Assembly (NCBI GenBank): GCA_016841745.1
Contig: JAENYO010000002.1
Coordinates: 186,001 to 250,000 of the forward strand
Length of the DNA stretch: 64,000 bases
Origin: Acetomicrobium hydrogeniformans
GTDB lineage: Bacteria > Synergistota > Synergistia > Synergistales > JAFGMB01
Direction of reading: 5' to 3'
Shown: piece by piece, positions 2,969 to 48,510 of the stretch
How the letters are laid out: the number at the start of each line of letters is the position of its first letter
Position numbering within the stretch: position 1 is the stretch's first letter
Notes under the pieces: generated by a model
What the model saw: only the letters and a program-made list of their open reading frames with translations
What the model was told of the DNA's origin: nothing
The model's database searches: none
Made by a program: the position numbers and the translations under genes

Positions 2969-3622
2969 ATGAAAAAAATTCCCACTATGGCAGAGGTTGT
3001 AATGAGAGAGATCGAGAACAGGATAATGGAAGGTTCCTATTCACCTGGTCAGAAACTGAATGTGGATGAGCTGTCAAGGGAGCTTAACGTGAGCAAAACT
3101 CCTGTCAGGGAGGCTCTTGGAAGACTTGCCAGACAGGGCCTTGTTGAATCTCAGCCCAGGGTTGGATGGAGGGTTTCTCTTTTATCAGGGGAGGAATTCT
3201 TTCAGTTCCAGGAGATAAAACACCTTATCCGGTACTACCTTGCCAGTCATATCGCCCCCTACGTTTCAAAGATAAACTACCGGAAAATCGAAGCCATGAA
3301 CAGCAACATGCACCATTTTACAAAGACCAGACAGTTTGGCCGGCTTCTTGAAGAGAATGACAAATTTCATATGGAGATCTTCGGAGTATATCCTAACAAG
3401 GTTCTCCTTGAATATCTCGATGAAGTAAGCAGTGCCATAAGATTACAGCGAATTTTTATGCTGGAGCAGAAACATCTGGACGAAGATAGTCCCCTTATCG
3501 TTCATGCAGCAAGAGAGCATGAGGATATTATTGAAGCTTTGAAAAAAGGTGACCAGGAGGAAATCCTGAGATCCTTTGAAAAACATCAGAGAACTATCAG
3601 GGAGTCATCTCACAACGAATAG
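2969..3622 (+). CDS. GntR family regulator with FCD ligand domain
   Basis: 217 residues. Residues 1-70 form the GntR winged helix (ELSRELNVSKTPVREALGRL, then QGLVESQPRVGWRVS). The rest is an all-helical FCD-type domain that binds a small organic acid or metal-coordinated ligand. It is the first gene behind a palindrome-covered promoter and is followed after 33 bases by the formyltransferase/acyl-CoA synthetase fusion gene. It probably represses the operon until the pathway substrate appears. The ligand is unknown. Confidence 0.93.
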   Translation: MKKIPTMAEVVMREIENRIMEGSYSPGQKLNVDELSRELNVSKTPVREALGRLARQGLVESQPRVGWRVSLLSGEEFFQFQEIKHLIRYYLASHIAPYVSKINYRKIEAMNSNMHHFTKTRQFGRLLEENDKFHMEIFGVYPNKVLLEYLDEVSSAIRLQRIFMLEQKHLDEDSPLIVHAAREHEDIIEALKKGDQEEILRSFEKHQRTIRESSHNE

Positions 3623-3655: not shown

Positions 3656-6505
3656 ATGATCAGACCTGTATATGATCCAATGAAGGGCAGAATGAGGGTT
3701 GCAGCCCTTGCCTCCGGGTCAGGAAATACCCTGTGGAAAGTACATGATCTTCAGCTTGAACTTGAAAAGACCTTTGAAGGCAGTACCTTTGAGGTAGTAG
3801 CCCTTTTTTCGGATAACCCAGGTTCAAAAGCGATTGAAATAGCAGAAGAAAGAGGTATCCCGGTCACTTCAATAGATATAAGGCAGTTCTATGCCGACAG
3901 GGAAAAACCTCTCAAGGACAGAGATGTGAGAGCGGAGTTCGATAACCGCATAATGGATTTCTTCGAGCTGTATGATCCTGATGTGATCCTTCTTGCAGGT
4001 TATGTCTGGGCTACTACTTCGGCAATTACAGGAAGTCTGCCCGTTATAAATGTTCATCCTGCAGACCTTTCTGTTAAAGATAGTAATGGAAACAGGGCAT
4101 ATGCAGGCGCTAACGGTGTTGGTGCTGCCCTTGCTGACAATGCACAAGAAGTACGGTCCAGTGCTCATCTGGCTACAGATGAGCTGGACGGAGGTCCCAT
4201 AATCCTTGTAAGCCCGCCGGTTCCTGTCGATCAGGATTCTGGTATGGAGGAAAAGGAAAGATTCCGGAAATACCTGAAACTGGTAAATGAACAATCAAGG
4301 TATGCAGGGGCCAGAACCATCCTTGAAATATCACTCGGAAATTTTGGACGAGATGAAAAGAGCATCCTTCACTATAAGGGAGATCCTGTTCCTGATGGAC
4401 TTAAATTGGAAAGCTGGAGTTCTTTTAAGCCTCTCCATGAGAGGGATACTGAAAAACTGCTCAATCCTCGGAGTATTGCCGTTATTGGTGCTTCAGCCAA
4501 ACCCGGGCTGGGTAATGCTGTTCTAAGGAACATTGTTGATTATGAATTCAATGGAAGTGTTTTTGCAGTAAACAGAAAAGGCGAAGATGTTCTGGGGGTC
4601 AGGGGATACAGAAGTGTAAAAGAGATCGAAGAGACTGTAGACCTGGCCCTTGTTACTGTACCTGCCAGTTTTGCAGTGGATGTGATAAGAGAATGTGGAG
4701 AAAAGGGAGTCAAGGCAGTAGCGACCCTTACGGCCGGTTTCAGGGAAATGGGAGAAGAAGGGGCCAGAGCTGAATCTGAAATAATGGAGATCATTAACAG
4801 ATACAATATGAGACTCCTTGGTCCCAACTGTATGGGCCTTCTTAATACCGACCCGCAGGTCAGACTTCATTCCAATATGCTTCAGAACATCCCTGCCAGG
4901 GGTCCCATAGGACTCATTACACAGAGTGGGGCCATCGGAGCGGCCATGCTTGACTGGGCCGAAGAACTAGGTCTCGGATTTTCCATGATCACTTCGACAG
5001 GAAACCAGCCCGATCTCAACATCTGTGACCTTTTACCCCTATATGCCATGGATTCCGGAACGAAGGTCATTCTTGCATATCTTGAAATGATCCCTGAACC
5101 TGCAAGATTTGCAAGGGTTCTTTCCATGGTGAATAAAATTAAACCGGTCATTATCCTCAAGTCTGGAAGGACAGAGGCTGGTGCTGCCGCTGCCAGGTCC
5201 CACACAGGAAGTCTGGCCGGGAATGAACAGATCGCTGAAGCACTTATCCAGAAGACAGGAGCTCTTCGGGTAAACACGCTTGAAGAAGCTTTTCTGCTTG
5301 CCTCTGCCCTTGGACGGATGCCAAAGATCAGAGGCAGCAGGGTCGGAATTATAAGCAACGCAGGTGGGCCAGGTACCCTTGTGGCCGACGCCCTTAATGA
5401 TCTGGGTTTTGTCCTCCCGGTTCTTTCCCATGAGCTGAGGGACAGTCTGGCAAAGGATATTCTTCCACAGGCTTCGACTGCCAATCCCCTTGATCTTGTT
5501 GCAACTGCTGCTCCTGAACATTATGGTAAAGCTTCCAGATTGATGGCGGAGAGCGGCATATACGATGCACTTATAGTCATAATGGTACCCCCCGTAACTG
5601 TCGAGACAGGTTCCGTGGCTCAGGCCATGATCGATTCTCTCAAGGATATTGATATTCCTGTACTTACATGTTTCTTCGGCCCCAAAATGGGGAGGGCCGG
5701 GCGAAATGTTATGCTTGAAGGTAAGATACCTTCTTTCCCCTTCCCTGAACAGACTGCTCAGGTCCTCAACCTCATGAGGGAGACAGAAACACCGGATAAA
5801 GATGCAGCAGATTACCCCTCCGCGGTTCCAGCTAGAGAACTACAGAATATCAGGTCCCTTTTTAAGGGGACTGATGGTACTTTTCTCCCCCCGGAAAAGT
5901 GTCAAACCCTGCTCATGTCATATGGATTCAAGGTAGCAAGATCCATTCTGGTGTTATCCCCTCAGGAGGTTGATGGCCTGGACTTGAACTTTCCTGTAGT
6001 TGCGAAGATAGATCACAGCGATATTATTCATAAATCCGATAGCGGGGGGGTTATTCTTGACATTGCCGATAAAGGATCCCTCAAAAAGGTAGTGTCTGAA
6101 ATGTTCTCAAAGTTTCCCGGGGCAAGGGGTGTGCTGGTACAGGAACAGGTTCGCGGGAATGTGGAGGTGATACTTGGGGCGAAAAGTGACCCGGCCCTTG
6201 GTCATGTCGTTCTGGCTGGCTATGGCGGAGTTGGAGTTGAGGTATTTAAGGATGTGTCATGGGGTCACGTTCCCTTCGGCAGGGTAAGTGCCCGGAAGAT
6301 GCTGAAAGACCTGAAGTGTTACCGGATCCTGGAAGGATACAGGGGAAAGCCGGGAGTGGACCTTGAAAACCTCGAAGACCTCATAATGAAAATGCAGGGT
6401 CTTCTTATCACTAATCCCGAAATAGAAGAGATGGACCTGAATCCCCTTATCTTTGACGGTAAGGAATTTATCGTAGCCGATTACAGGATAAAGATAGCAA
6501 GTTAA
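3656..6505 (+). CDS. Fusion of a formyltransferase domain to an ADP-forming acyl-CoA synthetase
   Basis: 949 residues with two enzyme parts. Residues 13-240 resemble PurN-type formyltransferases: GSGNT near 21, the catalytic pair N132/H134 in INVHPAD, and the DELDGG aspartate near 178, so the active site looks intact. From about residue 268 follows a CoA-binding domain (NPRSIAVIGASAKPGLGN), then the succinyl-CoA-ligase-like domains with the phospho-histidine motif SHTGSLAG, and from about 720 an ATP-grasp domain with HKSDSGGV. That half interconverts acyl-CoA + ADP + Pi with acid + CoA + ATP. ATP-making acid release is likely, but the formyl acceptor is unknown. The domains could also act separately. 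Confidence 0.9.
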   Translation: MIRPVYDPMKGRMRVAALASGSGNTLWKVHDLQLELEKTFEGSTFEVVALFSDNPGSKAIEIAEERGIPVTSIDIRQFYADREKPLKDRDVRAEFDNRIMDFFELYDPDVILLAGYVWATTSAITGSLPVINVHPADLSVKDSNGNRAYAGANGVGAALADNAQEVRSSAHLATDELDGGPIILVSPPVPVDQDSGMEEKERFRKYLKLVNEQSRYAGARTILEISLGNFGRDEKSILHYKGDPVPDGLKLESWSSFKPLHERDTEKLLNPRSIAVIGASAKPGLGNAVLRNIVDYEFNGSVFAVNRKGEDVLGVRGYRSVKEIEETVDLALVTVPASFAVDVIRECGEKGVKAVATLTAGFREMGEEGARAESEIMEIINRYNMRLLGPNCMGLLNTDPQVRLHSNMLQNIPARGPIGLITQSGAIGAAMLDWAEELGLGFSMITSTGNQPDLNICDLLPLYAMDSGTKVILAYLEMIPEPARFARVLSMVNKIKPVIILKSGRTEAGAAAARSHTGSLAGNEQIAEALIQKTGALRVNTLEEAFLLASALGRMPKIRGSRVGIISNAGGPGTLVADALNDLGFVLPVLSHELRDSLAKDILPQASTANPLDLVATAAPEHYGKASRLMAESGIYDALIVIMVPPVTVETGSVAQAMIDSLKDIDIPVLTCFFGPKMGRAGRNVMLEGKIPSFPFPEQTAQVLNLMRETETPDKDAADYPSAVPARELQNIRSLFKGTDGTFLPPEKCQTLLMSYGFKVARSILVLSPQEVDGLDLNFPVVAKIDHSDIIHKSDSGGVILDIADKGSLKKVVSEMFSKFPGARGVLVQEQVRGNVEVILGAKSDPALGHVVLAGYGGVGVEVFKDVSWGHVPFGRVSARKMLKDLKCYRILEGYRGKPGVDLENLEDLIMKMQGLLITNPEIEEMDLNPLIFDGKEFIVADYRIKIAS

Positions 6506-6570: not shown

Positions 6571-7788
6571 ATGGGATACAGAGAAGATGGTAAATGGTGG
6601 GTTTCACCGGCTAATTATACGGAAGAAGTTACAAGTAATTACAATTTTGCTGAAAAGATTGAGATCCTGGATACGACCCTGAGGGATGGAGAGCAGCAGC
6701 CCGGGATCATTTTTACCAGGGACGAAAAGGTCTCTATTGCCAGAAAACTGGCAGAGATCGGAGTGCACAGAATTGAAGCTGGGACTCCTGCCGCTTCCCA
6801 GGAAGATGCAGATGCCATAAAGGCAATTGTTGACGAGGGTCTTGATTCGAAGATATTCTGTTTTTCCCGCAATATGGTAAAGGACATGGAACTGGCGAAA
6901 TCTCTTGGAGTACATGGTGTTCTTGCCGAGATGATCGGAAGCGAACAGATGCTCCGATACGGAAAAAAATGGACCCCGGAACAGGCCATTGAAGCATGTG
7001 TTGAGGCTACCCGGGCTGCACATGAAATGGGTATGTATGTCACCTTTTTCCCTGCAGATGGTTCAAGAGCAGAGTTGAATTATCTTCTTGACTTTGTACA
7101 GGCAGTAGCTGAGGGCGGGCACATCGATTCACTCGCACTGGTGGATACCTTCGGAACTTTCTCTCCGGAAGGAGCAGCCTTCATGGTAAGAAAACTCAAG
7201 GAGAGATTCGATTTCCCGATAGAGGCACATTTTCACAGTGATTACGATCTTGGTGTCGCAACTACTCTTGCGGCCCTTGTGGCTGGAGCAGAAGTAGCTC
7301 ATGTAACCGTCAATGGAATAGGCGAACGGGCAGGAAGTGCACCTCTTGGAGCAGTAGCCCTTTCCCTTGAGGCTCTTTACGGTCAGAAAACCGGGATCAG
7401 ACTTGAAAAACTGAAGGAACTTTCAGAAATGGTGGTTGAATACTCAAAATTCCCGGTATGGCCCATCAAAGCAGTTGACGGAGACCGCCTGTTCGGATGG
7501 GAAACAGGTCTTCCATCCAGTCTGTGGGTAAATGCAAAGGAAACCAATCCCCTTATCATGCTGCCCTATCACTATACTCTGACCGGCCAGCAGGAGCCTG
7601 TCCTTTACCTTGGAAAGAAAAGCGGTAAGGATAATCTGAAATACTGGCTGGATAAGGCTGGTGTGGAAATAGACGATGACCAGAAGAAGGAACTTCTGCA
7701 GATGGTCAAGGCAAGGTCCATCGAGATGAAGAGGGATCTTGACATGAATGATTTCAAATCCCTGCTGAGTGCCCTTGGATCAAGGTAG
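6571..7788 (+). CDS. DRE-TIM metallolyase (isopropylmalate/homocitrate synthase-like)
   Basis: 405 residues. It has the family signature DTTLRDGEQQPG near residue 30 and the metal-binding HFHSDYD motif near 225, both hallmarks of the HMGL-like TIM barrel that condenses an acyl-CoA with a 2-oxo acid or cleaves the reverse. It lacks the long regulatory C-terminal domain of LeuA, having only about 100 extra residues. ATG 6571 is chosen because AGGAGG lies eight bases before it. It sits between the acyl-CoA synthetase fusion and an aminotransferase, so it may join or split a 2-oxo acid derived from an imported amino acid. The direction of reaction is not known. Confidence 0.9.
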   Translation: MGYREDGKWWVSPANYTEEVTSNYNFAEKIEILDTTLRDGEQQPGIIFTRDEKVSIARKLAEIGVHRIEAGTPAASQEDADAIKAIVDEGLDSKIFCFSRNMVKDMELAKSLGVHGVLAEMIGSEQMLRYGKKWTPEQAIEACVEATRAAHEMGMYVTFFPADGSRAELNYLLDFVQAVAEGGHIDSLALVDTFGTFSPEGAAFMVRKLKERFDFPIEAHFHSDYDLGVATTLAALVAGAEVAHVTVNGIGERAGSAPLGAVALSLEALYGQKTGIRLEKLKELSEMVVEYSKFPVWPIKAVDGDRLFGWETGLPSSLWVNAKETNPLIMLPYHYTLTGQQEPVLYLGKKSGKDNLKYWLDKAGVEIDDDQKKELLQMVKARSIEMKRDLDMNDFKSLLSALGSR

Positions 7789-7797
7789 ATTAGACCC

Positions 7798-8958
7798 ATG
7801 TCGGCTGTGAAAATAGCAGAAAGGTTTTCAGATCTGCAGCCTTCTTTGATGGTCAAGGTCTTTCGTGCTGCTGCCCAGGTGGAGGATCTCTCGAATCTTG
7901 GAATTGGAGAGCCGGACTTCAATACGGAGCCGGACATAGTGGATGCTGCTGCAAGGGCTGGTAAAGAGGGCTTTACCCATTATCCACCCCTCCCCGGATT
8001 TCTCGATCTAAGGCAGGAGATATGTTCCTACTGGGATAAAAAGTACGGGCTGAAATCGGTGCCGGATGAGGTTTTCGTAACCACAGGAGGTATCCAGTCA
8101 CCATTTCTTCTTTTCCAGGCCATACTGGATCCAGGAGATGAGGTTATTGTGACTGAACCTTGTTTTGTTGCCTACTTTCAACAGGTTGAATATAACGGAG
8201 GCAGAGTGGTTACGGTTCCATGTCTCGAGGAGAACGGTTTCAATCCCAGGGCAGAGGACATAGAAAAGGCAATTACTCCCAGAACCAGGGCCATCATGCT
8301 GAATTCCCCCTGTAATCCAACAGGAGCTGTAATTGACCGGGTGGAGCTGGAAAAGATCGCTGCAGTGGTGGAGAAACACGATCTCTTTGTAGTATCTGAT
8401 GAAATTTATGAGTCTATCCTTTTCGAGGGAGAACATGTTCCCTTTGCCACCCTTCCGGGAATGAAGGAAAGAACCATGACTGTGGGAGGTTTTTCCAAGT
8501 CCCATGCCATGACGGGATGGCGTATAGGTTATGCCATTGCTCCTCGTGAGATCCTCGGCCTGATGCAGGTCCTGAGCATTGTTCAATCCTTTGGAGTTAA
8601 TTCTCTTGCCCAGAAAGCAGCCCTTTATGCCCTGAAAACCCAGGAGAAAAAGGTCATGGAGAGAAGGGATATCTTCAGGCAGAGGGTTGACTATGCACTG
8701 GAGCGTCTTAATGCAATACCTGGGATCAGTTGTCTGAAACCGGGAGGATCCTTCTATCTCTTCCCCAATATAAGCGGAACAGGAATGAATTCAGAAGAAT
8801 TTACATTCTGGCTTCTAGAGAAGGCCAAGGTTGCAGTTATACCTGGAATCTCATTCGGAAAGAGTGGTGAAGGTTATGTAAGGATATCCTGCGCCATGTC
8901 CCTGAAAGACCTTGAAAAGGCCATGGACAGGATGGAGAATGCTCTGAAAAACAGGTAA
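7798..8958 (+). CDS. Class I/II pyridoxal-phosphate aminotransferase
   Basis: 386 residues, fold type I, aspartate-aminotransferase family. Visible motifs are NSPCNPTGAV (binding of the cofactor ring) near residue 165, SDEIYE near 200, and the cofactor lysine in GGFSKSHAMTGWRIGYA near 230. It would convert an amino acid to its 2-oxo acid or back. It starts nine bases after the aldolase stop codon, so the two are translated from one message. The substrate is probably the amino acid carried by the NSS symporter just downstream, but this is inference. Confidence 0.94.
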   Translation: MSAVKIAERFSDLQPSLMVKVFRAAAQVEDLSNLGIGEPDFNTEPDIVDAAARAGKEGFTHYPPLPGFLDLRQEICSYWDKKYGLKSVPDEVFVTTGGIQSPFLLFQAILDPGDEVIVTEPCFVAYFQQVEYNGGRVVTVPCLEENGFNPRAEDIEKAITPRTRAIMLNSPCNPTGAVIDRVELEKIAAVVEKHDLFVVSDEIYESILFEGEHVPFATLPGMKERTMTVGGFSKSHAMTGWRIGYAIAPREILGLMQVLSIVQSFGVNSLAQKAALYALKTQEKKVMERRDIFRQRVDYALERLNAIPGISCLKPGGSFYLFPNISGTGMNSEEFTFWLLEKAKVAVIPGISFGKSGEGYVRISCAMSLKDLEKAMDRMENALKNR

Positions 8959-9018: not shown

Positions 9019-10371
9019 ATGGATAACAAAGGTAATAGAGATCAGTTCACTTCCGGTTTTGGATTTGTCCTGGCCTCTGCTGGTTCAGCGATAGGTCTGG
9101 GAAATATCTGGCGCTTTCCTTATATGACTGGGACTAACGGAGGAGGGGCCTTCGTTCTCCTCTATCTTGCGATCGTTCTTCTGGTTGGAGCAACCCTGCT
9201 GCTTGTGGAGTTTACCATTGGCCGGCATGGTCAGGCAAATGCCGTCGAAAGTTATGGAAAGATAAGCAAGCCCTTCAAGTGGATAGGCTATCTAGGGGTC
9301 TTTATATCCTTTCCGCTTCTGGCCTATTACGCCGTTGTAGGTGGATGGACCATCTATTACTCTATGCAATCAGCTCTGGGTAAGTTGACCAGCGTTCCTG
9401 CAGATCAGATGGGAGCATTCTTTGGAGGGTTCATAGGTCTTGTGACATCACCAATAATTTACCTGGCCATTTTCCTTATCTTCACCCTTCTCATTGTGGC
9501 AAGGGGTGTCTCTGGAGGTATCGAAAAATGGAGCAAGATCCTTATGCCAGCCATGTTCGTGCTTCTGGTTATTCTTCTGGTAAGGTCTGTCACCCTTCCG
9601 GGAGCCATGGAAGGCGTCAAATGGTACCTTAAGCCTGATTTCTCCAAGATCAACGGGTCAGTAGTTGTAGCAGCCCTTGGTCAGGCCTTTTTCTCTCTGA
9701 GTGTGGGATTATCCGGAATGGTTACCTACGGTTCATACCTGTCAAAGAAAGAGAACCTCACCACCAACACCCTTACCGTTGTTGGTTTCGATACTCTCAT
9801 AGCTATCCTTGCCGGTTTTGTAGTATTCCCTGCCGTATTTGCCTTTTCCATGGAGCCCGGTGGTGGACCCGGTCTTGTGTTTATAACCCTTCCCCAGGTT
9901 TTCAGTAAAATGCCTATGGGGGCCTTTTTCTCCGCATCTTTCTTCCTTCTCCTGCTCTTTGCTGCCCTTACCTCATCCATTTCTATCATGGAGGTTTCCA
10001 TATCCTACTTTACTGAAAGCTTCAATGTATCCCGCAGGCAGATGTCATGGATCTACGGAATAATCGTATTTGTTCTTGCCATACCTGTTTCTCTCAGTTT
10101 TGGTATATGGGGAGATGTCTCTATCTTCGGAAAGGGTATTTTTGATCTTTACGATTACTTCTGCGCCAATCTAGCCCTTCCCTTCTGTGCCTTCATGTGT
10201 GCCATTCTTGTTGGCTGGGTATGGGGCAAGGATAAAGCAATGGCAGAACTTACCAACAATGGAACCATCGATAACTGGTATATAAGGATATGGTTCCCCC
10301 TTGTAAAGTACGTTTCACCCCTTGTTGTAGGACTTATTCTGCTTAACGCTATAGGGGTTCTGAAATTCTAG
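9019..10371 (+). CDS. Sodium-dependent NSS family amino acid symporter
   Basis: 450 residues with about eleven membrane helices. The first helix carries the NSS signature GFVLASAGSAIGLGNIWRFP, where the sodium and substrate sites form. Bacterial members with eleven helices take up amino acids such as tyrosine, tryptophan or branched residues. It is the last gene of the GntR operon, 60 bases after the aminotransferase behind the ribosome site AAGGAGG, and is followed by a strong two-way terminator. The exact substrate cannot be read from the sequence. Confidence 0.95.
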   Translation: MDNKGNRDQFTSGFGFVLASAGSAIGLGNIWRFPYMTGTNGGGAFVLLYLAIVLLVGATLLLVEFTIGRHGQANAVESYGKISKPFKWIGYLGVFISFPLLAYYAVVGGWTIYYSMQSALGKLTSVPADQMGAFFGGFIGLVTSPIIYLAIFLIFTLLIVARGVSGGIEKWSKILMPAMFVLLVILLVRSVTLPGAMEGVKWYLKPDFSKINGSVVVAALGQAFFSLSVGLSGMVTYGSYLSKKENLTTNTLTVVGFDTLIAILAGFVVFPAVFAFSMEPGGGPGLVFITLPQVFSKMPMGAFFSASFFLLLLFAALTSSISIMEVSISYFTESFNVSRRQMSWIYGIIVFVLAIPVSLSFGIWGDVSIFGKGIFDLYDYFCANLALPFCAFMCAILVGWVWGKDKAMAELTNNGTIDNWYIRIWFPLVKYVSPLVVGLILLNAIGVLKF

Positions 10372-14323: not shown

Positions 14324-14598
14324 GAAATTACCCCCCTTACTTTTTTTAAAAAATGTTGTTGCCTTCAATGGAATATAGCACAAAGGTACCGATGGAACAA
14401 TCTGTTACATTTATGCATATTCTGTAACGGGACATAAATAGTATCCATATCAGGGGAAAAGTGGATAATTCTATTTACCGGAAAGAAATTCGTCCCTACC
14501 TGTGGAACATGTTCAGTTTCCCATACAATCTGGGGTTTACAAATTTGTCATTAAAGGGTAACAATCAATGTCAGTTAATTATCAGAGGGGGGATCTTT
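14324..14598. promoter_or_regulatory. Divergent intergenic region with an inverted repeat
   Basis: It separates the importer operon (minus) from the oxidoreductase gene (plus). GTTACA (14404-14409) and TGTAAC (14422-14427) form an inverted repeat over an AT-rich centre, a possible operator for either side. A GTG at 14461 opens the downstream frame, but the 46 codons after it do not resemble the enzyme family and lack a ribosome site. Confidence 0.35.
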
Positions 14599-15750
14599 AT
14601 GAAGGTGGTCCAGATAGGGGCTGGTCTTGTAGGTCAGATTATAGCATCGGATCTGGTAAGGGATAATGAAGTCACACTTGTTGACATGAACTCTTCGGCT
14701 CTGGAAGAGGTCAGGAAAAAATTGCCAGGTATAAAAACGGCAGTTGCTTCTGCCACCAGCAAAGATGAGCTTGAACCCTTGATTAGAGAGGCAGATGTAG
14801 TTACTGCCGGAATTCCAGGACGCTTCGGCTATGAAATGATGAAAAATGTAATTTCCCTTGGCAGGGATCTTGTGGACATATCCTTCATGAGTGAAGATTT
14901 TGAGGAACTTGACAGTCTGGCAAAGGCAAAGGGTGTCACTGTTATTCCTGACATGGGTGTTGCCCCCGGGATGTCAAATTTTCTCATGGGCAGGGGAGAT
15001 TTCCTTCTCGATGATGTAGAAGATGCCTTCATATATGTAGGGGGGATACCGGTGACCCCACAACCACCCTTTAATTATCAGGTCACATGGTCCCCGAGGG
15101 ATTGCATAGAGGAATTTACCAGACCAGTCACAGTTGTCAGAAATGGAAATAAGGAGATCCTGGAAGCCACATCAGGTCTTCATAACAGGGATTTCCCGAA
15201 GCTCGGGACACTGGAGGTATTCTATACGGATGGTCTGAGGAGCCTGGCAAACAACCTGAGGGCAAAGACCATGGGAGAGATGACCATGCGCTGGCCCGGG
15301 CATGTGGAGCAGATGCGCCTGCTCCGTTCCATGGGCATGTTCGATGAAACTCCACGGATACTTGGAGGGAAGAAAGTAGTTCCCCTGGATGTAACTGCAG
15401 ACCTTCTCTTTCCCATGTGGAAAATGGAACCGGAAAAGGGGGACCGGGATCTAACAGTCATGAAAGTGGAAGTTCACGGTTTCAGGGGTAGTGATGAAGT
15501 TACCTGGACCTGGGATCTCCTCGATTATTTTGATGAAGAGACCTGGAATACTTCCATGAGCAGATGTACCGGTTTTTCCTGTGCCATTTTTGCAAGGGCT
15601 TTAATGCAGGGTCTGGTAAGGGAAAAAGGTGTTCTTCCTGCAGAAAAACTTGCCCACAGTGATGAACTTTACGATTTTGTCATGAAAGAACAGAGGATCA
15701 GGAAGATAGATTATACAGAATCAGTGAGAAGAATAAAGGATGTCCGCTAG
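14599..15750 (+). CDS. Saccharopine dehydrogenase-like NAD(P)-dependent oxidoreductase
   Basis: 383 residues. The N-terminus MKVVQIGAGLVGQIIASDL is a Rossmann nucleotide-binding motif, and MGVAPGMSNFL near residue 120 is the conserved loop of the saccharopine reductase/lysine 6-dehydrogenase group. Family members oxidise or form secondary amines or the amino group of lysine-like compounds. ATG 14599 follows AGAGGGGGGATC. The neighbouring small cupin gene is probably co-transcribed. The substrate is unknown, but an amino-acid-derived imine would fit the many OCD genes nearby. Confidence 0.88.
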   Translation: MKVVQIGAGLVGQIIASDLVRDNEVTLVDMNSSALEEVRKKLPGIKTAVASATSKDELEPLIREADVVTAGIPGRFGYEMMKNVISLGRDLVDISFMSEDFEELDSLAKAKGVTVIPDMGVAPGMSNFLMGRGDFLLDDVEDAFIYVGGIPVTPQPPFNYQVTWSPRDCIEEFTRPVTVVRNGNKEILEATSGLHNRDFPKLGTLEVFYTDGLRSLANNLRAKTMGEMTMRWPGHVEQMRLLRSMGMFDETPRILGGKKVVPLDVTADLLFPMWKMEPEKGDRDLTVMKVEVHGFRGSDEVTWTWDLLDYFDEETWNTSMSRCTGFSCAIFARALMQGLVREKGVLPAEKLAHSDELYDFVMKEQRIRKIDYTESVRRIKDVR

Positions 15751-17311: not shown

Positions 17312-18436
17312 TTAGAACCAGTGGGGTTCGTCCCAGAGTTTGAGTTCTTGTCCAATTCCTTTTTTCAGTGCATTCTGGTAAACGGCATATCCCCATGCAA
17401 CGTCTTCAACAGGCATTCCGCCAGTGAGAAATACTATCTTTTCTTTATCATCTTTTCTACCCGGGACTTTGCCGCATGCGATATCTCCAAGGCTTCTTAT
17501 ATCTTCATGTTTCATTTTCTCATCAAGTATCAGTTTGATAACAGGAGCAGAAGGGGCCCAGGTCAGAATACTTTCAATTCCCTTGGGATGTTCATCTCCT
17601 TCAACCATCCATGCCTGGTGCATTTTCCAGTTATCGGCTATTACTGTATTGTCCAGATAACAGTCTTCCGTTAATCCGGCTGTTCCTGTAAGAGTTAAGA
17701 GAGCTCCTTCTTTAAGCCATTCAGTTGGAATATCAGCTTTTTTTGCACCTGCGGTTGCAATGCTTATGACATCGGCTTTTCTTATACATTCCTCAAGAGA
17801 GTCAACGGGAGTTACCTTGAGCCCCGTTATTTTTTCCATTTCTTCTTTAAATGCAACGGATTTTTCCGGAAGAATGTCGTAAATAAGGGCTTCCTCAAGA
17901 GAAGGAGTCCCCTCGGCAATGGCCATGAGGCATGCCCTGCTTATTACTCCAGCTCCAACAACGCCACAGACTTTGGAATCCTTGCGGGCAAGGTATTTTG
18001 CGGCTACTCCAGGTACGGAGCCTGTTCTCATGGCACTGATGAGGTTGCCAGACATTATAGCCAGAGGTTCGGATGTTACGGCGTCATTAAGCATAACGGT
18101 GAGAATAGATCTGGGCAAGCCGGATTTGGGATTTTCAATATTTGAGCCATACCATTTTTCACCGCATACGTTGAATCTTCCTCCAAGATAGGTAACCATT
18201 GCCATGAACCTTCTATCCGGACCATTGACGGGCATGTTAGGAAAACGTTTTTCTTCAGGGAACCATATCATAAGGCCATGTTCATTTTCCCTGGGACCGC
18301 CCATCAAATAGTCACCCTCGCCAAGGAGATGAAAAGCTTCATCTATTACCTTGACGCACTCTTTCATATCCAAGACCCCGGCTTCTATCATTTCAGGTTC
18401 TGAAAGATATAAAAACTTTACTTCTTTTCCCTTCAC
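17312..18436 (-). CDS. Ornithine cyclodeaminase/mu-crystallin family enzyme, tandem copy A
   Basis: 374 residues, longer than the usual 330 or so. Conserved family positions are seen: the lysine in GEKWYGS, the arginine in AMRTGSVPGV and a Rossmann domain beginning at CGVVGAGVISRA. In that motif Ile-Ser replaces the usual Gln after the glycines. It is a tandem relative of the gene at 18499, and both end in GIGQELKLWDEPHWF. Family members reduce cyclic imines, make proline from ornithine or form N-alkyl amino acids with NAD(P)H. The exact reaction is unknown. Confidence 0.88.
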   Translation of the reverse strand: MKGKEVKFLYLSEPEMIEAGVLDMKECVKVIDEAFHLLGEGDYLMGGPRENEHGLMIWFPEEKRFPNMPVNGPDRRFMAMVTYLGGRFNVCGEKWYGSNIENPKSGLPRSILTVMLNDAVTSEPLAIMSGNLISAMRTGSVPGVAAKYLARKDSKVCGVVGAGVISRACLMAIAEGTPSLEEALIYDILPEKSVAFKEEMEKITGLKVTPVDSLEECIRKADVISIATAGAKKADIPTEWLKEGALLTLTGTAGLTEDCYLDNTVIADNWKMHQAWMVEGDEHPKGIESILTWAPSAPVIKLILDEKMKHEDIRSLGDIACGKVPGRKDDKEKIVFLTGGMPVEDVAWGYAVYQNALKKGIGQELKLWDEPHWF

Positions 18437-18498
18437 AATAAAAACCTCCTTTATGAAATAAGTATCCAGAATTAGTTGCTGAAATCGAGTTGTTTATT

Positions 18499-19623
18499 TT
18501 AGAACCAGTGAGGTTCATCCCAGAGTTTAAGCTCTTGTCCAATGCCTTTTTTCAGTGCATTCTTGAAAATAGTGTGACTCCAGGCCAGATCTTCAGTGGG
18601 TAGACCTCCAGTAATACAGACGGTTCTTTCTTTGGTGTTTTCCCTTCCTGGTTTTTTGCCAGAAATAATATCGCCAAGGCTTACTACATCATCATCTGTC
18701 ATCTTTCCATCCTCAATATATTTAAAGAGGTATTTGCTCGCTAGACCAAAATGTGTTTCAATGTCAAGGCCTTCAAGTTCTTCTCTGAAAGCCATGTGCA
18801 TCTTCCAATGGTCTACTACTACTTTTTCTGGTACATCAAAGAGGTAATTGGGTTCAAAAGAAACACCTGCAGGAAGTGCGAGATATGCCCCCTCTTTTAT
18901 CCATTCCGGTTTGATGAAAGGGCAAGCCTTTCCTGAAGCTGCGACATTTATTACATCTGATCCCACCACGCATTCTTCAAGAGATCCAACGGGGTGGACA
19001 TTGAGTCCAAGTTCTTTAGACATTTCTTCAGAGAAAGATGTTGACTTTTCGGTATTCAGGTCAAAGACTTTGACTTCTTCTGCTTCTTTGAGGACATATG
19101 CCAGGGACATAAGTGAAGCTTTACTTATTACGCCTGCTGCAACTATACCAATAACTTTTGAGTCAGGTCTTGCCAGGTATCTTGCCCCTACTCCCGGAAT
19201 AGCTCCGGTCCTCATGGCGCTTACAAGATTGGCCGACATAAAGGCTAGTGGTTCTGAGGTATCGGGATCGTTTAGAATAATGTTAAGGATAGATCGTGGA
19301 AGACCCCTTGAGGGATTGATTACATGGGATCCATACCATTTTTCACCACAGACATTGAACTTCCCTCCCAGGTAGCCCACCATTGCCATGAACCTTCTGT
19401 CCGGGCCAGCTACAGGCATGTTAGGAAATTCTGATGTTTCAGGGAAAACGACTTTGATTCCATGAGAACTCTGAGAGGCTCCTCCAAGAAGATAGTCGCC
19501 CTTTCCCATAAGATCGAACATCTCCACCATTGTTTCTACACATTGGCCCATATCAAGTACTCCTGCCTTTATCATGTCTTCTTCTGAGAGGAAAAGGAAT
19601 TTAACACTTTTGCCTTTTGTCAT
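18499..19623 (-). CDS. Ornithine cyclodeaminase/mu-crystallin family enzyme, tandem copy B
   Basis: 374 residues, same length and architecture as copy A 62 bases downstream. The nucleotide-binding motif has degenerated further to GIVAAGVISKA, where the first glycine is Ala. The substrate-side lysine (GEKWYGS) and arginine (AMRTGAIPGV) are kept. The two copies could form a heteromer or serve related substrates. The gene follows the GltS-like carrier gene, so its substrate may be an acidic amino acid derivative. That link is inferred from order only. Confidence 0.87.
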   Translation of the reverse strand: MTKGKSVKFLFLSEEDMIKAGVLDMGQCVETMVEMFDLMGKGDYLLGGASQSSHGIKVVFPETSEFPNMPVAGPDRRFMAMVGYLGGKFNVCGEKWYGSHVINPSRGLPRSILNIILNDPDTSEPLAFMSANLVSAMRTGAIPGVGARYLARPDSKVIGIVAAGVISKASLMSLAYVLKEAEEVKVFDLNTEKSTSFSEEMSKELGLNVHPVGSLEECVVGSDVINVAASGKACPFIKPEWIKEGAYLALPAGVSFEPNYLFDVPEKVVVDHWKMHMAFREELEGLDIETHFGLASKYLFKYIEDGKMTDDDVVSLGDIISGKKPGRENTKERTVCITGGLPTEDLAWSHTIFKNALKKGIGQELKLWDEPHWF

Positions 19624-19724: not shown

Positions 19725-21128
19725 TTATTCTGCCCCGGCTTCTTCTGGAACGATCTTTGTAGGTCTGATAATTGGTAAAGACCGATACCACCACTTCATT
19801 ATCATAGGTAATACCAGGAAAAATACCAGGTATCCTCCAGCCGGACCTAACAAAGTCCAGAATCTTTCAGTTGACAAAAGGATAGGCCCAATCGAGACCA
19901 TGAGAATGTCTGTCATAACGACTATAGGCGTAATAATTGCCGTATCATCAAGAGTTTTGGATCTCATATCCGGATCTACTATCCTGAGAAGGGCGAATCC
20001 AATGGCAAAAACTCCAGTGCAATATCCGTAAACAAAAATTCCTCTCTCAAACCAGTCCTGCTTGTTCATTCTTGGGGCAAGGAATAAAAATCCTCCTACC
20101 ACGATTGCGATTCCCAAAATCATGAGCATGGAAAAGGGAGCCCAATACTTCAGCACAACAGGCAGTTTGATTGAGGCAACCCCAAAGAAGACCAGGTAAT
20201 CTGTAAAGGCACTTCCCATCCTTCCAACGAGTTTTCGATCCACGTATTTGTAGGCTCCGCTGGGCTTGAGCAGATAGTAGAAAACCACTGCTACAATGAA
20301 AGCCATGGAGAACGTAGGAACATGGAGGCCGAACTGTGAATTAACGAGTTGAGCGGCGATACGGCCTATTCCGGCAGGAAGAAATATTAATGCCAGATGC
20401 CAGGCTAGCGGGTCAATAGATATTGGAGATACTGTTTCTGAGCCAATGGAAACCCTCTTTTCAGGAGGTATAAGGCCGGTTCGCAGTTCTTCCGGAAGGC
20501 TGCCAAAATCTCGAACGTAGGATGTGATTCCACGTTTTGTAGCCCACTTGATCAGAATAACTCCGCCAAATATACCTGCCATAATTCCTATAGTTGCAGA
20601 TGTCATGGCGAGGTCAGTTGCATCAGTCCATCCGTAGGCAGCAAATGTTTTTCCTACTGCTGCAGCAGTTCCATGTCCGCCTACAAAACCTGCACCAAGA
20701 AGCATCCCGAATCCTGGGTGAATGTTGGGGAAAATCCTGTTAAGTACGTAAATTCCGAAAACTATTGGAATGAAATACTGAAGCATGTATGAAACTTCTT
20801 TAAAGCACATATAACTGCCTATGCGCTCCACATCTTTCTTGAAACCGCCCTTTGATATTTCAAAACCGCGAAGTCCGATTGAAACGAAGACAAGAACTAT
20901 AAGCATTCCTGAGTATCGTCCCATCTGCCCAGAAAAGGGTATCAATCCGAATCCTCTGGGACCAAGGGCAAGACCAACAAAACCGGCGATAAGACTTGCA
21001 GGGACGAAGAAACTCTGGAAAAATTTGACTTTAGCTCTTAATAACTGTCCAACAAGGATAAATCCACTGGCAAAGGCCAGATCGAGCAAAAAACTATAAA
21101 CATCAAAAGTTTCGGCAAAGATTGACAC
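19725..21128 (-). CDS. Sodium/glutamate symporter family (GltS-like) carrier
   Basis: 467 residues and about twelve membrane helices. The family marker GAGFVGGHGTAAAVG lies near residue 155, in the re-entrant loop region of sodium:glutamate symporters. The start is GTG at 21128 behind AAGGGGGAG. It would bring in glutamate or a related acidic compound with sodium. It heads the minus-strand run GltS, OCD B, OCD A, EamA and is divergent from an RpiR regulator gene, which may control both directions. Confidence 0.88.
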   Translation of the reverse strand: MSIFAETFDVYSFLLDLAFASGFILVGQLLRAKVKFFQSFFVPASLIAGFVGLALGPRGFGLIPFSGQMGRYSGMLIVLVFVSIGLRGFEISKGGFKKDVERIGSYMCFKEVSYMLQYFIPIVFGIYVLNRIFPNIHPGFGMLLGAGFVGGHGTAAAVGKTFAAYGWTDATDLAMTSATIGIMAGIFGGVILIKWATKRGITSYVRDFGSLPEELRTGLIPPEKRVSIGSETVSPISIDPLAWHLALIFLPAGIGRIAAQLVNSQFGLHVPTFSMAFIVAVVFYYLLKPSGAYKYVDRKLVGRMGSAFTDYLVFFGVASIKLPVVLKYWAPFSMLMILGIAIVVGGFLFLAPRMNKQDWFERGIFVYGYCTGVFAIGFALLRIVDPDMRSKTLDDTAIITPIVVMTDILMVSIGPILLSTERFWTLLGPAGGYLVFFLVLPMIMKWWYRSLPIIRPTKIVPEEAGAE

Positions 21129-39648: not shown

Positions 39649-41379
39649 ATGAGAAAGAAAAAGCAGTTATTGTCTCTTTTGTTTTCTGCTGTTTTAGTTG
39701 TTTTCTTTGCATGTTCCGCTTTTGCGGGTGATCCACCCAATTGGGGAGATGTAAATGGAACCACCGATATTGTGCCTTTGGAGATATTGGCTGGTGATAG
39801 CTGCTATTCCCCCGAGGGTGCTGAAACAGAACTGGAATTTACAATGCACGGTGATAGCGTGAATGACTGCGAGTGGGGGTATCCCTCTAATCTCGAATAT
39901 GCCTTTGATGGATTGATAATAAGGACCACAGAGGTAAGCGGGGATCTTGAGGGTACTGCCTGGTACAGCGGTTATCAGTATATCAGTCTTGTATTTGAAG
40001 AGGATGAGGATCAATCTGGAAATTTCAGTGCTGTTTTTAACTTTGATACATCTTCTGGTATTGGCGGAACTCCGCCCGAATCCTGCGACGTATCTTTCAG
40101 TTGGGACTTCAGCCTGGAACCGGAAAGGTTCATGGCAGGTATACTCCATGCGCCATATAACGACAATGGTACTTTGTATGGAGATACTGCCAGTTGTGAC
40201 ATTGGTGTAGTCCTGCTCGAAGAAACACCTACCTTCGATATTTTTGTGGGTAAATCCGGGGAGGAAATGCAATATGCCCGTTCTCTGGGACCTTTAACTT
40301 CCACTAACTGCAGTGTCGATGCCGGACTGCTTTTCCTTCTTCCTGGCGATAGCGTAGGAATTATCTATGCCAATTTATGGGATGAGCAGATCGAACTTTC
40401 CTTTACCGAAGCAGGCTTCTCCATTATGCGTTATCTCTTCGCACCGGATCTCTATGACGGTGATGGCCCACCAGCCATGATAGAGGTGCAAGATAACTAT
40501 ATCATTGATCCTGCATTAGCTGTAGAAGGCTACCTTTCCTCAATAGGAAAACAAGAAAATTCATTTAGGGATATTACTTTTAGAGATGGAACTGTTACCC
40601 ATCTTTCCTGGCTCTGGTGTGAACTTATCTATCAGGATGAAAATAGTGCTAATGCTGTGGGTTTTGCCGGTAACCCCACATCTGCCGATTTCAACGATGA
40701 GCTTGACGATAAGATCTATAAAGTCATTGTGTCTGATGATTTCTGGCCAATGAGTGTAACGCCCGAAGAATTTAATCTTGTCACTGCAGCTTCCTCGGGA
40801 GACTTTATCGGCCAGGTATCCATGGACATCAGCATACCTTTCCAGGCTGATACTTTTCGAAAATGGGCAATACCCATTGGTTTAAGGATCGGTATCCCTG
40901 GAGAAAACATTGAGCAGTATGATGAGGAGCTCATGCAAACCGTTGATGCGGAACTGGGTGAGAACCCCACGGAAGAAGAACTGGAAGCCGTTGTACGTAA
41001 ATATCTTTCCTTTACCAAGGAGTGGAGCACGGGAGAGACTGCCCAGATAAGGCTTGATGACCCCGAATTTGCAGATGCAGTGGACATTTTCTTTGAAATG
41101 GATGATGACGGAGGAGTCAATAACATAATATTTACGGTCAGTCTGCTCATCGTTAATGGCGGAGAGCCGGGAATGATAGATTCTGCAACAGCAAATGACC
41201 GCAAGTACATTGTAATTTATGATGGGAATCTGGATCTTAGGTTTTCTGATCCCATAAAGCTTGCTGCTGCTTATGAAGAAGATACTTCTGGTTCGGGCGG
41301 AAGTGGATGTTCGGCCTTTGGTTTTGTGCCTGCAGCAGGCCTGCTTTTACTACCTCTTTTAATGCTTTTGAAAAAATAA
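39649..41379 (+). CDS. Secreted surface protein with Synerg-CTERM sorting signal
   Basis: 576 residues. It begins with a signal peptide (basic MRKKK, a hydrophobic run, then ACSAFAG). A long acidic middle, rich in Asp, Glu and Tyr, follows. The last 27 residues read Gly/Ser-rich GSGGSGCSAFGF, a hydrophobic stretch and KK. This is the Synerg-CTERM type of sorting signal, thought to anchor proteins at the cell surface after processing. No catalytic domain is recognised. The gene is flanked by its own promoter and terminator, so it is probably expressed alone. Confidence 0.88.
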   Translation: MRKKKQLLSLLFSAVLVVFFACSAFAGDPPNWGDVNGTTDIVPLEILAGDSCYSPEGAETELEFTMHGDSVNDCEWGYPSNLEYAFDGLIIRTTEVSGDLEGTAWYSGYQYISLVFEEDEDQSGNFSAVFNFDTSSGIGGTPPESCDVSFSWDFSLEPERFMAGILHAPYNDNGTLYGDTASCDIGVVLLEETPTFDIFVGKSGEEMQYARSLGPLTSTNCSVDAGLLFLLPGDSVGIIYANLWDEQIELSFTEAGFSIMRYLFAPDLYDGDGPPAMIEVQDNYIIDPALAVEGYLSSIGKQENSFRDITFRDGTVTHLSWLWCELIYQDENSANAVGFAGNPTSADFNDELDDKIYKVIVSDDFWPMSVTPEEFNLVTAASSGDFIGQVSMDISIPFQADTFRKWAIPIGLRIGIPGENIEQYDEELMQTVDAELGENPTEEELEAVVRKYLSFTKEWSTGETAQIRLDDPEFADAVDIFFEMDDDGGVNNIIFTVSLLIVNGGEPGMIDSATANDRKYIVIYDGNLDLRFSDPIKLAAAYEEDTSGSGGSGCSAFGFVPAAGLLLLPLLMLLKK

Positions 41380-46740: not shown

Positions 46741-48510
46741 ATGAAATCTTTACATCCTGAGCCAGGTCACAGTAAAGCAAACCTTTTCCTGAAGTTCCTT
46801 ATATTAGTCTGGCCTTTTCTTTTTATATGGCAGGGCGTGGATCTTACGGACACAGGATATCTCCTCACAGGAGGACAGCAGGTTTTTCTTGAACCTCAGA
46901 ATGTTCAGTTCAGCTACCTCTTTTCATTTGTTATTACGGGTATCTGGAGCCGTCTTACAGCGCCCCTTGGATTGATGGGCGCTTATCTCGGGGGGGCCTT
47001 TCTTTACATCCTTACAGCTTTTTGTGTTTACAGGATTTTACGAAAACAGATACCGGAAAGGGTCTTGCTGCTGGGACTGCTTCTGACCGTTATGATCCCC
47101 AATCTCATGAGATATATCAATTACAATAACCTCACATCATTTTTCTTTGTCCTGGGTTCGGCTGTGTTCATTAAGGCTTTCACCAGCCATAGACAGGTCT
47201 ATTACTTCCTTGCAGGGATCATTTTCGGATCAAGCTTTTATCTTCGTCTGCCCAACCTGGTTTCCATTTCTTTGTCTTTAGTCATAGTGACAGGACATTA
47301 TCTTAATGGAGCAGCCTGGAAAGACATCCTGAAAGGTTTTTTGTCTTTTATTTCAGGTTTTATTTCTGCATTGATAGTTCCCTTTATGATCCTGCACATT
47401 TGGGGTCTGTCGGATCATTATTTTGAGACATTTCAGCGCCTGTTGAGTTTTATGACAGATTCTTCCTCCCATCATTCAGGAGAAGGGCTGATACGGAAAG
47501 TGATCCTCGATTTTGACATAACCTTTGCTGCGTTTTTTAAAAGTATCATTATCTTTGCCATACTGGCAAAAATAAATGATATCTTCTGTAGCCGAACCCT
47601 GCGTACATTTACCATAGCCCTTTCTCTTGCCGTTATTTTTCTGATCGGATCAGGTGTTATGGGTAAGACGGCAGCCTATCATTATTATCTTCTTGGCTTT
47701 ATCGAATTTATGCTGCTCCTGCAGGTCCTTGGGTTCACATCATCAGAGGGAGAAATTCGTTTTGCCAGCCTTGTGGCTTTTATGGTCATGCTGTTCGGAA
47801 TGGCCGGTTCCAACACTGGCCTGAGTGCCGCCCGTTATAATCTGTGGTTTGCACTTCCCTTGAGCCTTCATGGTCTATTTAATTTAAAAGGATTGTATCT
47901 TTGCGAATTCCTCAACGTAGAGAAAGGGGGAAAAGTTCAAAATAAGGGCATATCCCTGTTCAGTGAAAAGGGGATGAAGATGATACGGAACATTATCTGT
48001 ATCTCAATGACCCTGTTTTTTGTTATCCTTTGTTATCGGTTCAGTTACAGGGATTCGCAACAGAGATACCTGCTGCGTTACAATATTGACCACCCAAAGA
48101 TGCAGTATGTCTTTACCACCCGTGAAAGATCTGAGGTAATGACAGAAGCGCTGAATGAGCTCTCTAAATACGTCCTGCCTGGAGACTATCTCCTGGCATA
48201 TAATTATGTACCTCTTTTCTATTACCTCACAGATACAAGACCTTATGTATATCATTCCTGGCCGGAGATGTATTCTCCGGAACAGCTGATAGATAAACTG
48301 AAACAGGCTATTGCAGAGAGAAAGGGGCTTCCCCCTGTGATCAGGGCAAAATATCCACCCCTTAACGATACCTGGCCGAAGAAACATTTATCAGGCAGGG
48401 GGTCTGTCAAACATCACCAGGTCTTTGATGAGTTCCTGAAACAGGGGAAATATTTACAGGTGTGGGAAAATGAGTTTTTCCAGATCCTTCTGCCGCCGTC
48501 GTCATGGTAG
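46741..48510 (+). CDS. Polytopic membrane protein, probable GT-C type glycosyltransferase
   Basis: 589 residues with about eleven membrane helices and a C-terminal soluble part of about 110 residues. The first outer loop reads QGVDLTDTGYLL, acidic residues in the place where GT-C enzymes such as ArnT bind the metal or the sugar donor. I do not recognise a named family. In this position it would transfer the lipid-linked 4-amino sugar to lipid A, a polysaccharide or a protein outside. It is the last gene of the plus-strand run. Confidence 0.7.
   Translation: MKSLHPEPGHSKANLFLKFLILVWPFLFIWQGVDLTDTGYLLTGGQQVFLEPQNVQFSYLFSFVITGIWSRLTAPLGLMGAYLGGAFLYILTAFCVYRILRKQIPERVLLLGLLLTVMIPNLMRYINYNNLTSFFFVLGSAVFIKAFTSHRQVYYFLAGIIFGSSFYLRLPNLVSISLSLVIVTGHYLNGAAWKDILKGFLSFISGFISALIVPFMILHIWGLSDHYFETFQRLLSFMTDSSSHHSGEGLIRKVILDFDITFAAFFKSIIIFAILAKINDIFCSRTLRTFTIALSLAVIFLIGSGVMGKTAAYHYYLLGFIEFMLLLQVLGFTSSEGEIRFASLVAFMVMLFGMAGSNTGLSAARYNLWFALPLSLHGLFNLKGLYLCEFLNVEKGGKVQNKGISLFSEKGMKMIRNIICISMTLFFVILCYRFSYRDSQQRYLLRYNIDHPKMQYVFTTRERSEVMTEALNELSKYVLPGDYLLAYNYVPLFYYLTDTRPYVYHSWPEMYSPEQLIDKLKQAIAERKGLPPVIRAKYPPLNDTWPKKHLSGRGSVKHHQVFDEFLKQGKYLQVWENEFFQILLPPSSW

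Follow-up and report, generated by a model that had tools for sequence, protein, structure and literature searches.

A single gene of Acetomicrobium hydrogeniformans joins a formyltransferase (FT) to an ADP-forming acyl-CoA synthetase (ACS), as the preliminary description had claimed. It lies within the window, the whole 64,000-nucleotide stretch of DNA analyzed here. The reading tentatively adopted is that its product is a real two-domain enzyme belonging to a horizontally spread module for the fermentation of 2-oxo acids, in which FT would transfer formyl groups between tetrahydrofolate (THF) and CoA and ACS would convert formyl-CoA with a gain of ATP. The gene, its functional parts and its neighbors are arranged as follows.

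2969..3622, plus strand: GntR/FCD transcriptional regulator opening the presumed operon (Pfam GntR, 2.9e-20; FCD, 1.1e-8)
3656..6505, plus strand: FT-ACS fusion, 949 amino acids (Pfam, NCBIfam, Foldseek and conservation)
3692..4240, plus strand: Formyl_trans_N domain, residues 13-195 (PF00551; Pfam, 1.8e-13)
4049-4051, 4055-4057 and 4187-4189, plus strand: FT catalytic codons N132, H134 and D178 (conservation and profile alignment to E. coli PurN)
4064-4066, plus strand: invariant D137 of FT, adjoining the lost Ser of PurN (conservation and profile alignment to E. coli PurN)
4469..4846, plus strand: CoA-binding domain of ACS, residues 272-397 (CoA_binding_2, PF13380; 7.2e-23)
4898..5311, plus strand: succinyl-CoA-ligase-like flavodoxin domain, residues 415-552 (Succ_CoA_lig, PF13607; 6.7e-45)
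5201-5203, plus strand: invariant phospho-acceptor His516 of ACS, inside the Succ_CoA_lig domain
5879..6496, plus strand: ATP-grasp_5 domain, residues 742-947 (PF13549; 3.5e-54)
6029-6031, plus strand: second His792 of ACS, inside ATP-grasp_5 (H792-K793 invariant)
6571..7788, plus strand: IPMS/HMGL-like (DRE-TIM) enzyme (PF00682; 4.7e-60)
7798..8958, plus strand: class I/II aminotransferase (PF00155; 7.8e-70)
9019..10371, plus strand: SNF-family Na+ symporter (PF00209; 1.1e-73; closest solved structure 4us3, MhsT, 3.5e-112)

The fusion is read in one uninterrupted frame from the ATG at 3656 to the stop codon ending at 6505, behind a ribosome-binding site judged good (aaaggagtgtttaaATG). An N-terminal FT part of approximately 260 residues precedes the synthetase domains, which also include Ligase-CoA_2 at residues 563-697, and every Pfam match exceeds its gathering cut-off. 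AlphaFold gives a confident model (pLDDT 88, pTM 0.87). In Foldseek comparisons, its N-terminal part matches GAR transformylases (E. coli 1cde, TM 0.88 on target), and its C-terminal part matches 8wzu (TM 0.90 on target), PatZ, DddX and ckcACD1. The fusion is conserved at 43-69% identity across many independent genomes, which excludes a frame or assembly artefact. Both halves stand apart from the nearest named families. Against the NCBIfam PurN equivalog the fusion scores 69.6 bits, under the cut-off of 150.1, and its relationship to 4-hydroxybutyrate-CoA ligase and acetate-CoA ligase reaches 472 bits against an equivalog cut-off of 1300; formyltetrahydrofolate deformylase models match FT weakly.

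Both active sites are complete, in agreement with the preliminary description. In FT, which has the Formyl_trans_N fold and the Asn/His/Asp catalytic residues of the PurN class, the motif INVHP holds N132 and H134 and DELDGG holds D178. In ACS, SHTGS holds H516 and HKSDSGG holds H792-K793. H134, D178, H516, H792 and K793 are invariant in all 27 full-length orthologs, N132 is kept in 25 (Gly in the other two), and conservation over FT is roughly equal to that over ACS. The CoA-binding, succinyl-CoA-ligase-like and ATP-grasp domains, together with the phospho-acceptor and second relay His, place the C-terminal part in the ACD superfamily. It shares domain set, domain order and both relay His with 8wzu (4-hydroxybutyrate-CoA ligase), 4xyl (ckcACD1) and 2csu (PH0766) at approximately 30% identity, but only the fusion has an N-terminal formyltransferase. 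FT likewise has the fold, the Asn/His pair, the DELDGG Asp and the glycine-rich SGSG loop of PurN, but differs from it in being fused and around the folate site, where PurN has Arg and FT an invariant W118. In addition, the triad Ser of PurN, located two positions past the catalytic His, gives way to Ala or Gly, with the invariant Asp137 following.

Folate-dependent formyl transfer and CoA-ester chemistry had been regarded as not normally coupled, a view that overlooks two precedents in which formyl transfer to CoA or phosphopantetheine is proposed or known. HypX/HoxX is a formyltransferase fused to a crotonase, proposed to synthesize CO via formyl-CoA; for its FT, which has no triad Ser and in which an Asp holds the His, transfer of formyl from 10-formyl-THF onto CoA has been proposed (PMC6802093). 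In ALDH1L1/FDH, a chain of formyltransferase, carrier protein and aldehyde dehydrogenase, FT hands the formyl group to a phosphopantetheine thiol (PMC6802093). Like HypX, the fusion combines FT with a CoA-ester enzyme, lacks the triad Ser and conserves an Asp near the catalytic His. However, its partner is an ADP-forming synthetase rather than a crotonase, its FT belongs to a different subfamily, nearest PurN and not HypX, and its module contains no hydrogenase genes. Because the Asp lies at H+6 in HypX and at H+3 (D137) in the fusion, the parallel between them is suggestive only. In contrast to ALDH1L1/FDH, the fusion has no carrier-protein domain, and the onward step would conserve ATP rather than oxidize the formyl group to CO2.

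Downstream of the GntR regulator, which also precedes the fusion at loci L032, L049, L050, L057 and L065, the window carries the fusion, the HMGL/IPMS-like enzyme, the aminotransferase and the SNF symporter, in that order. The closest solved structures to the aminotransferase are aspartate/aromatic aminotransferases (1gd9, 1dju). MhsT, the nearest match of the symporter, is a hydrophobic-amino-acid transporter, so the imported amino acid is probably hydrophobic. The alternative of homoserine or 4-hydroxy-2-oxobutanoate with release of formaldehyde, prompted by several DctP relatives that bind erythronate or pantoate and by the aldolases within the fold class of the HMGL-like enzyme, was down-weighted in view of this transporter. 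Elsewhere, the genes around the FT and HMGL core vary: an SNF symporter together with an aminotransferase of either of two families; an aminotransferase with a branched-chain-type (Liv) ABC transporter (L064); a TRAP transporter accompanied by a D-2-hydroxyacid dehydrogenase and in some cases by esterases; or a TRAP transporter alone. Each of these variants could deliver a 2-oxo acid. Solved-structure matches to the TRAP binding proteins and the esterase single out no substrate. Five Bacillota clusters (L051, L052, L056, L058 and L059) have an unfused second ADP-forming ACS of its own clade between the HMGL and aminotransferase genes, for example at L051:4341-6416 on the minus strand.

Several further genes were observed in and around these loci. 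In a Treponema MAG, a 1476-amino-acid protein of the acyl-CoA dehydratase activase type is encoded directly 3' of the fusion gene (L068:10926-15356). The window contains a saccharopine-dehydrogenase-like gene (14461-15750), near the module in L049 too, and two tandem ornithine cyclodeaminase/mu-crystallin genes (17312-19623) adjoining a Glt_symporter-family gene (19725-21128). Two of its open reading frames, at 39649-41379 (576 amino acids) and 46741-48510 (589 amino acids), have no Pfam match at 1e-10.

The steady partner of FT is the HMGL-like gene, present at 25 of the 32 loci compared, with several of the remainder cut by contig ends. Among 188 Synergistota genomes, 14 have both FT and the FT-type HMGL and one each has either alone (Fisher p ~5e-19, phylogeny ignored). 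In the window, its start is favored at ATG 6571, which has a ribosome-binding site upstream, over TTG 6553. The enzyme aligns with homocitrate and isopropylmalate synthases (6ktq, 3rmj) and, like them, has the DRE-TIM fold and the RDGEQ and HxH metal motifs. In contrast to these synthases, its relatives have lost the catalytic residues, with Pro standing in for the His of GxH (WETG(L/M)P) and the FSxED Glu missing (FFPAD). Lacking the Claisen His and Glu, the partner is probably not an acetyl-CoA Claisen synthase, and the usual synthesis of alkylmalates from acetyl-CoA is unlikely for the clade. A sister HMGL clade without FT (L117-L126, L130-L136) also lacks the catalytic His (GIG/GIV). Its operons are of the carboxylate-transport type, with TRAP, TAXI or TTT transporters alongside genes for 2-hydroxyacid dehydrogenase, LarA-type racemase or malic-enzyme-like proteins, and the window genome has a second HMGL copy of this kind (G000:C8:40929-42104). 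This clade looks like a putative 2-oxo-acid lyase family; the lactate-racemase literature that was searched gives no assignment for the HMGL neighbor. At L136:6694-12372, an HMGL-like gene precedes those for an aminotransferase, for a glycyl radical enzyme whose closest solved relative is glycerol dehydratase 1r8w, and for the activase of that enzyme, which together make up another catabolic module.

A survey of fusion architectures and their neighbors, which brought the gene module to light, found the fusion to be stable and of a single origin. The FT-domain scan returned 30 loci, from Synergistaceae, Oscillospiraceae, Lachnospiraceae, Mogibacterium, Acidaminobacter, Soehngenia, Tissierellia, Treponema and other Spirochaetaceae (mostly MAGs), Candidatus Adiutrix and one Sumerlaeota bacterium. 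The fusion itself is carried by scattered gut and sediment anaerobes of Synergistota, Bacillota, Spirochaetota, Sumerlaeota and Candidatus Adiutrix, and FT is present in 15 of the 188 Synergistota genomes. Among the carriers in culture is Cuneatibacter sp. NSJ-177. The ACS halves of the fused proteins form one clade against other synthetases with 100% local support, and the fusion, which is old, therefore most likely arose once. Stand-alone FTs of approximately 257 residues, nested inside the fused FTs and set in the same operon, occur in two separate lineages (L065/L047 and L074). ACS has thus disappeared on at least two occasions with FT remaining in place; in genome G192, which holds L074, no ADP-forming synthetase is detectable at all. 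No loss of FT was seen among the loci compared, and no near ACS relative without FT was seen, the best unfused ACS having 34% identity. The preliminary description had allowed that orthologs might often lack the first domain, leaving it a regulatory remnant, but the pattern is the reverse: FT is the part retained, and its persistence beside HMGL without ACS marks these two as the core pair.

Several observations tie the module to folate one-carbon chemistry. At three related Bacillota loci (L051, L052 and L056), a formate-THF ligase (Fhs) lies inside the cluster, with Fhs, SNF, HMGL and unfused ACS on one strand and the aminotransferase, the fusion and an XRE-cupin regulator on the other. Since these loci are close relatives, the presence of Fhs may reflect one event. 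The L051 cluster is flanked by unrelated housekeeping genes, and its Fhs is the only copy found in that genome. All FT-bearing genomes that were checked carry one or more additional Formyl_trans_N genes, most of these being PurN- or Fmt-sized (in the window genome, a separate PurN-length gene of 200 amino acids), so FT is not simply a housekeeping enzyme. The window genome has FolD, as do 11 other FT-positive genomes, which makes 10-formyl-THF supply independent of the fusion. No formate-THF ligase was found in the window genome, which is 99.6% complete; 164 of 188 Synergistota genomes have one. Fhs is present in 11 of 15 FT-positive versus 153 of 173 FT-negative Synergistota genomes (p=0.11, uncorrected), and among high-quality genomes it is absent from 3 of 8, one of them the window genome, versus 7 of 108 (p=0.02, uncorrected), a weak negative association. 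As the whole story, plain replacement of formate-THF ligase by the fusion was rejected, given those 11 FT-positive genomes with Fhs and the three loci that carry both. The lyase-like partner, the pairing of aminotransferase with transporter or dehydrogenase with TRAP, and the Fhs genes of the three loci together indicate that the module probably serves to ferment a 2-oxo acid, conserving energy through one-carbon units and CoA esters.

The tentatively adopted reading can be set out as a series of steps. An amino acid, probably hydrophobic, would be imported and converted to a 2-oxo acid by the aminotransferase; in other lineages, an imported 2-hydroxy acid would yield the 2-oxo acid through the D-2-hydroxyacid dehydrogenase. 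The HMGL-like enzyme would act on this 2-oxo acid, and FT would shuttle formyl between tetrahydrofolate and CoA in the manner proposed for HypX. Via His516 and His792, ACS would then convert formyl-CoA, ADP and phosphate to formate, CoA and ATP, although its substrate may be formyl-CoA or another CoA ester. The net result would be a CoA-routed counterpart of formate-THF ligase, or the dispatch of formyl-CoA either to the folate pool or to ATP. We infer that FT has folate and CoA as its partners, that formyl-CoA is the intermediate common to both domains, and that the reaction runs in this direction. Of the earlier suggestion that the fusion makes or uses a formylated acid with ATP gained, an ATP-yielding CoA-ester step is likely because the operon is catabolic, and the Fhs loci provide the folate connection, whereas the formylated ester itself stands as a conjecture.

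The formyl-CoA reading accounts for the fusion, for the FT-only lineages, which could use Fhs instead, and for fusion genomes without Fhs. Against it, it offers no route from a 2-oxo acid to formyl at that oxidation level; the stand-alone FTs in two lineages and the synthetase-free genome G192 imply that formyl-CoA need not go to ACS; and Fhs beside the fusion at three loci would be redundant if the fusion merely duplicated it. The affinity of FT to PurN, D137 at H+3 and W118 in place of Arg also count against it. A broader and unlikely proposal is a non-radical, non-ferredoxin anaerobic route in which the DRE-TIM lyase and FT cleave 2-oxo acids of hydrophobic amino or hydroxy acids, the one-carbon unit leaves as formyl-CoA or formyl-THF, and the fused synthetase yields ATP.

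The main rival, possible if doubtful, is that the two halves perform separate steps of one pathway. FT would exchange formyl between THF and some product of the HMGL-like enzyme, other than CoA; ACS would use a different CoA ester, the acyl-CoA derived from that 2-oxo acid, to yield the free acid and ATP; and the fusion would serve stoichiometry or channeling. ADP-forming synthetases usually act on acyl-CoAs from the oxidative degradation of hydrophobic amino acids, which suits the MhsT-like transporter of the window. The survival of the FT and HMGL pair without ACS fits this arrangement as well, and the Fhs of the cluster would collect the 10-formyl-THF. However, one fusion kept across several phyla suggests tighter coupling, no formyl acceptor or donor besides CoA can be named, and the unfused second ACS of the five clusters would already handle the acyl-CoA.

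Decidedly less probable is that FT is a PurU-like deformylase or one-carbon recycler that frees THF from 10-formyl-THF, with ACS energetically unrelated. The weak matches to deformylase models, the kept residues, which are those of the formyltransferase/deformylase fold, and the existence of stand-alone FT are consistent with it. However, such an activity would waste ATP in a catabolic operon whose relatives carry formate-THF ligase, the ACT domain of PurU was not found in the Pfam scan of the fusion, and the fusion would be left unexplained. The prospect that FT is a leftover domain with a ligand-binding or regulatory role, attached to an otherwise ordinary acyl-CoA synthetase, is poor. The low Formyl_trans_N score, with some orthologs near or under the cut-off, and the replaced triad Ser speak for decay, but all 27 proteins compared, drawn from several phyla, retain His134 and Asp178, FT matches ACS in conservation and outlives its loss, and ACS has no near relative without FT. 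Finally, an arrangement with ACS as an acyl-CoA sensor and FT as the modifier of a protein or small molecule, prompted by the resemblance of ACS to E. coli PatZ (9it0/9isq), there joined to an acetyltransferase, is scarcely credible given that both phospho-relay His are invariant in the fusion and that catabolic transporters and enzymes, not regulatory targets, flank the gene.

In the literature searched, no description was found of the fusion, of an ADP-forming formyl-CoA synthetase, or of formyl-CoA with 10-formyl-THF and acetyl-CoA synthetase. As far as that literature shows, the enzyme architecture and the fermentation module are undescribed, although they build on known formyltransferases and ADP-forming synthetases. 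The analysis also brings to light a large IPMS-like clade without the residues for the textbook reaction. If formyl-CoA is indeed shared between the two halves, CoA rather than formate-THF ligase would be the link from folate one-carbon units to ATP, and we know of no earlier enzyme that couples them in this way. More broadly, the module points to an undescribed 2-oxo-acid fermentation common to anaerobes of the rumen, gut, termite and digester.
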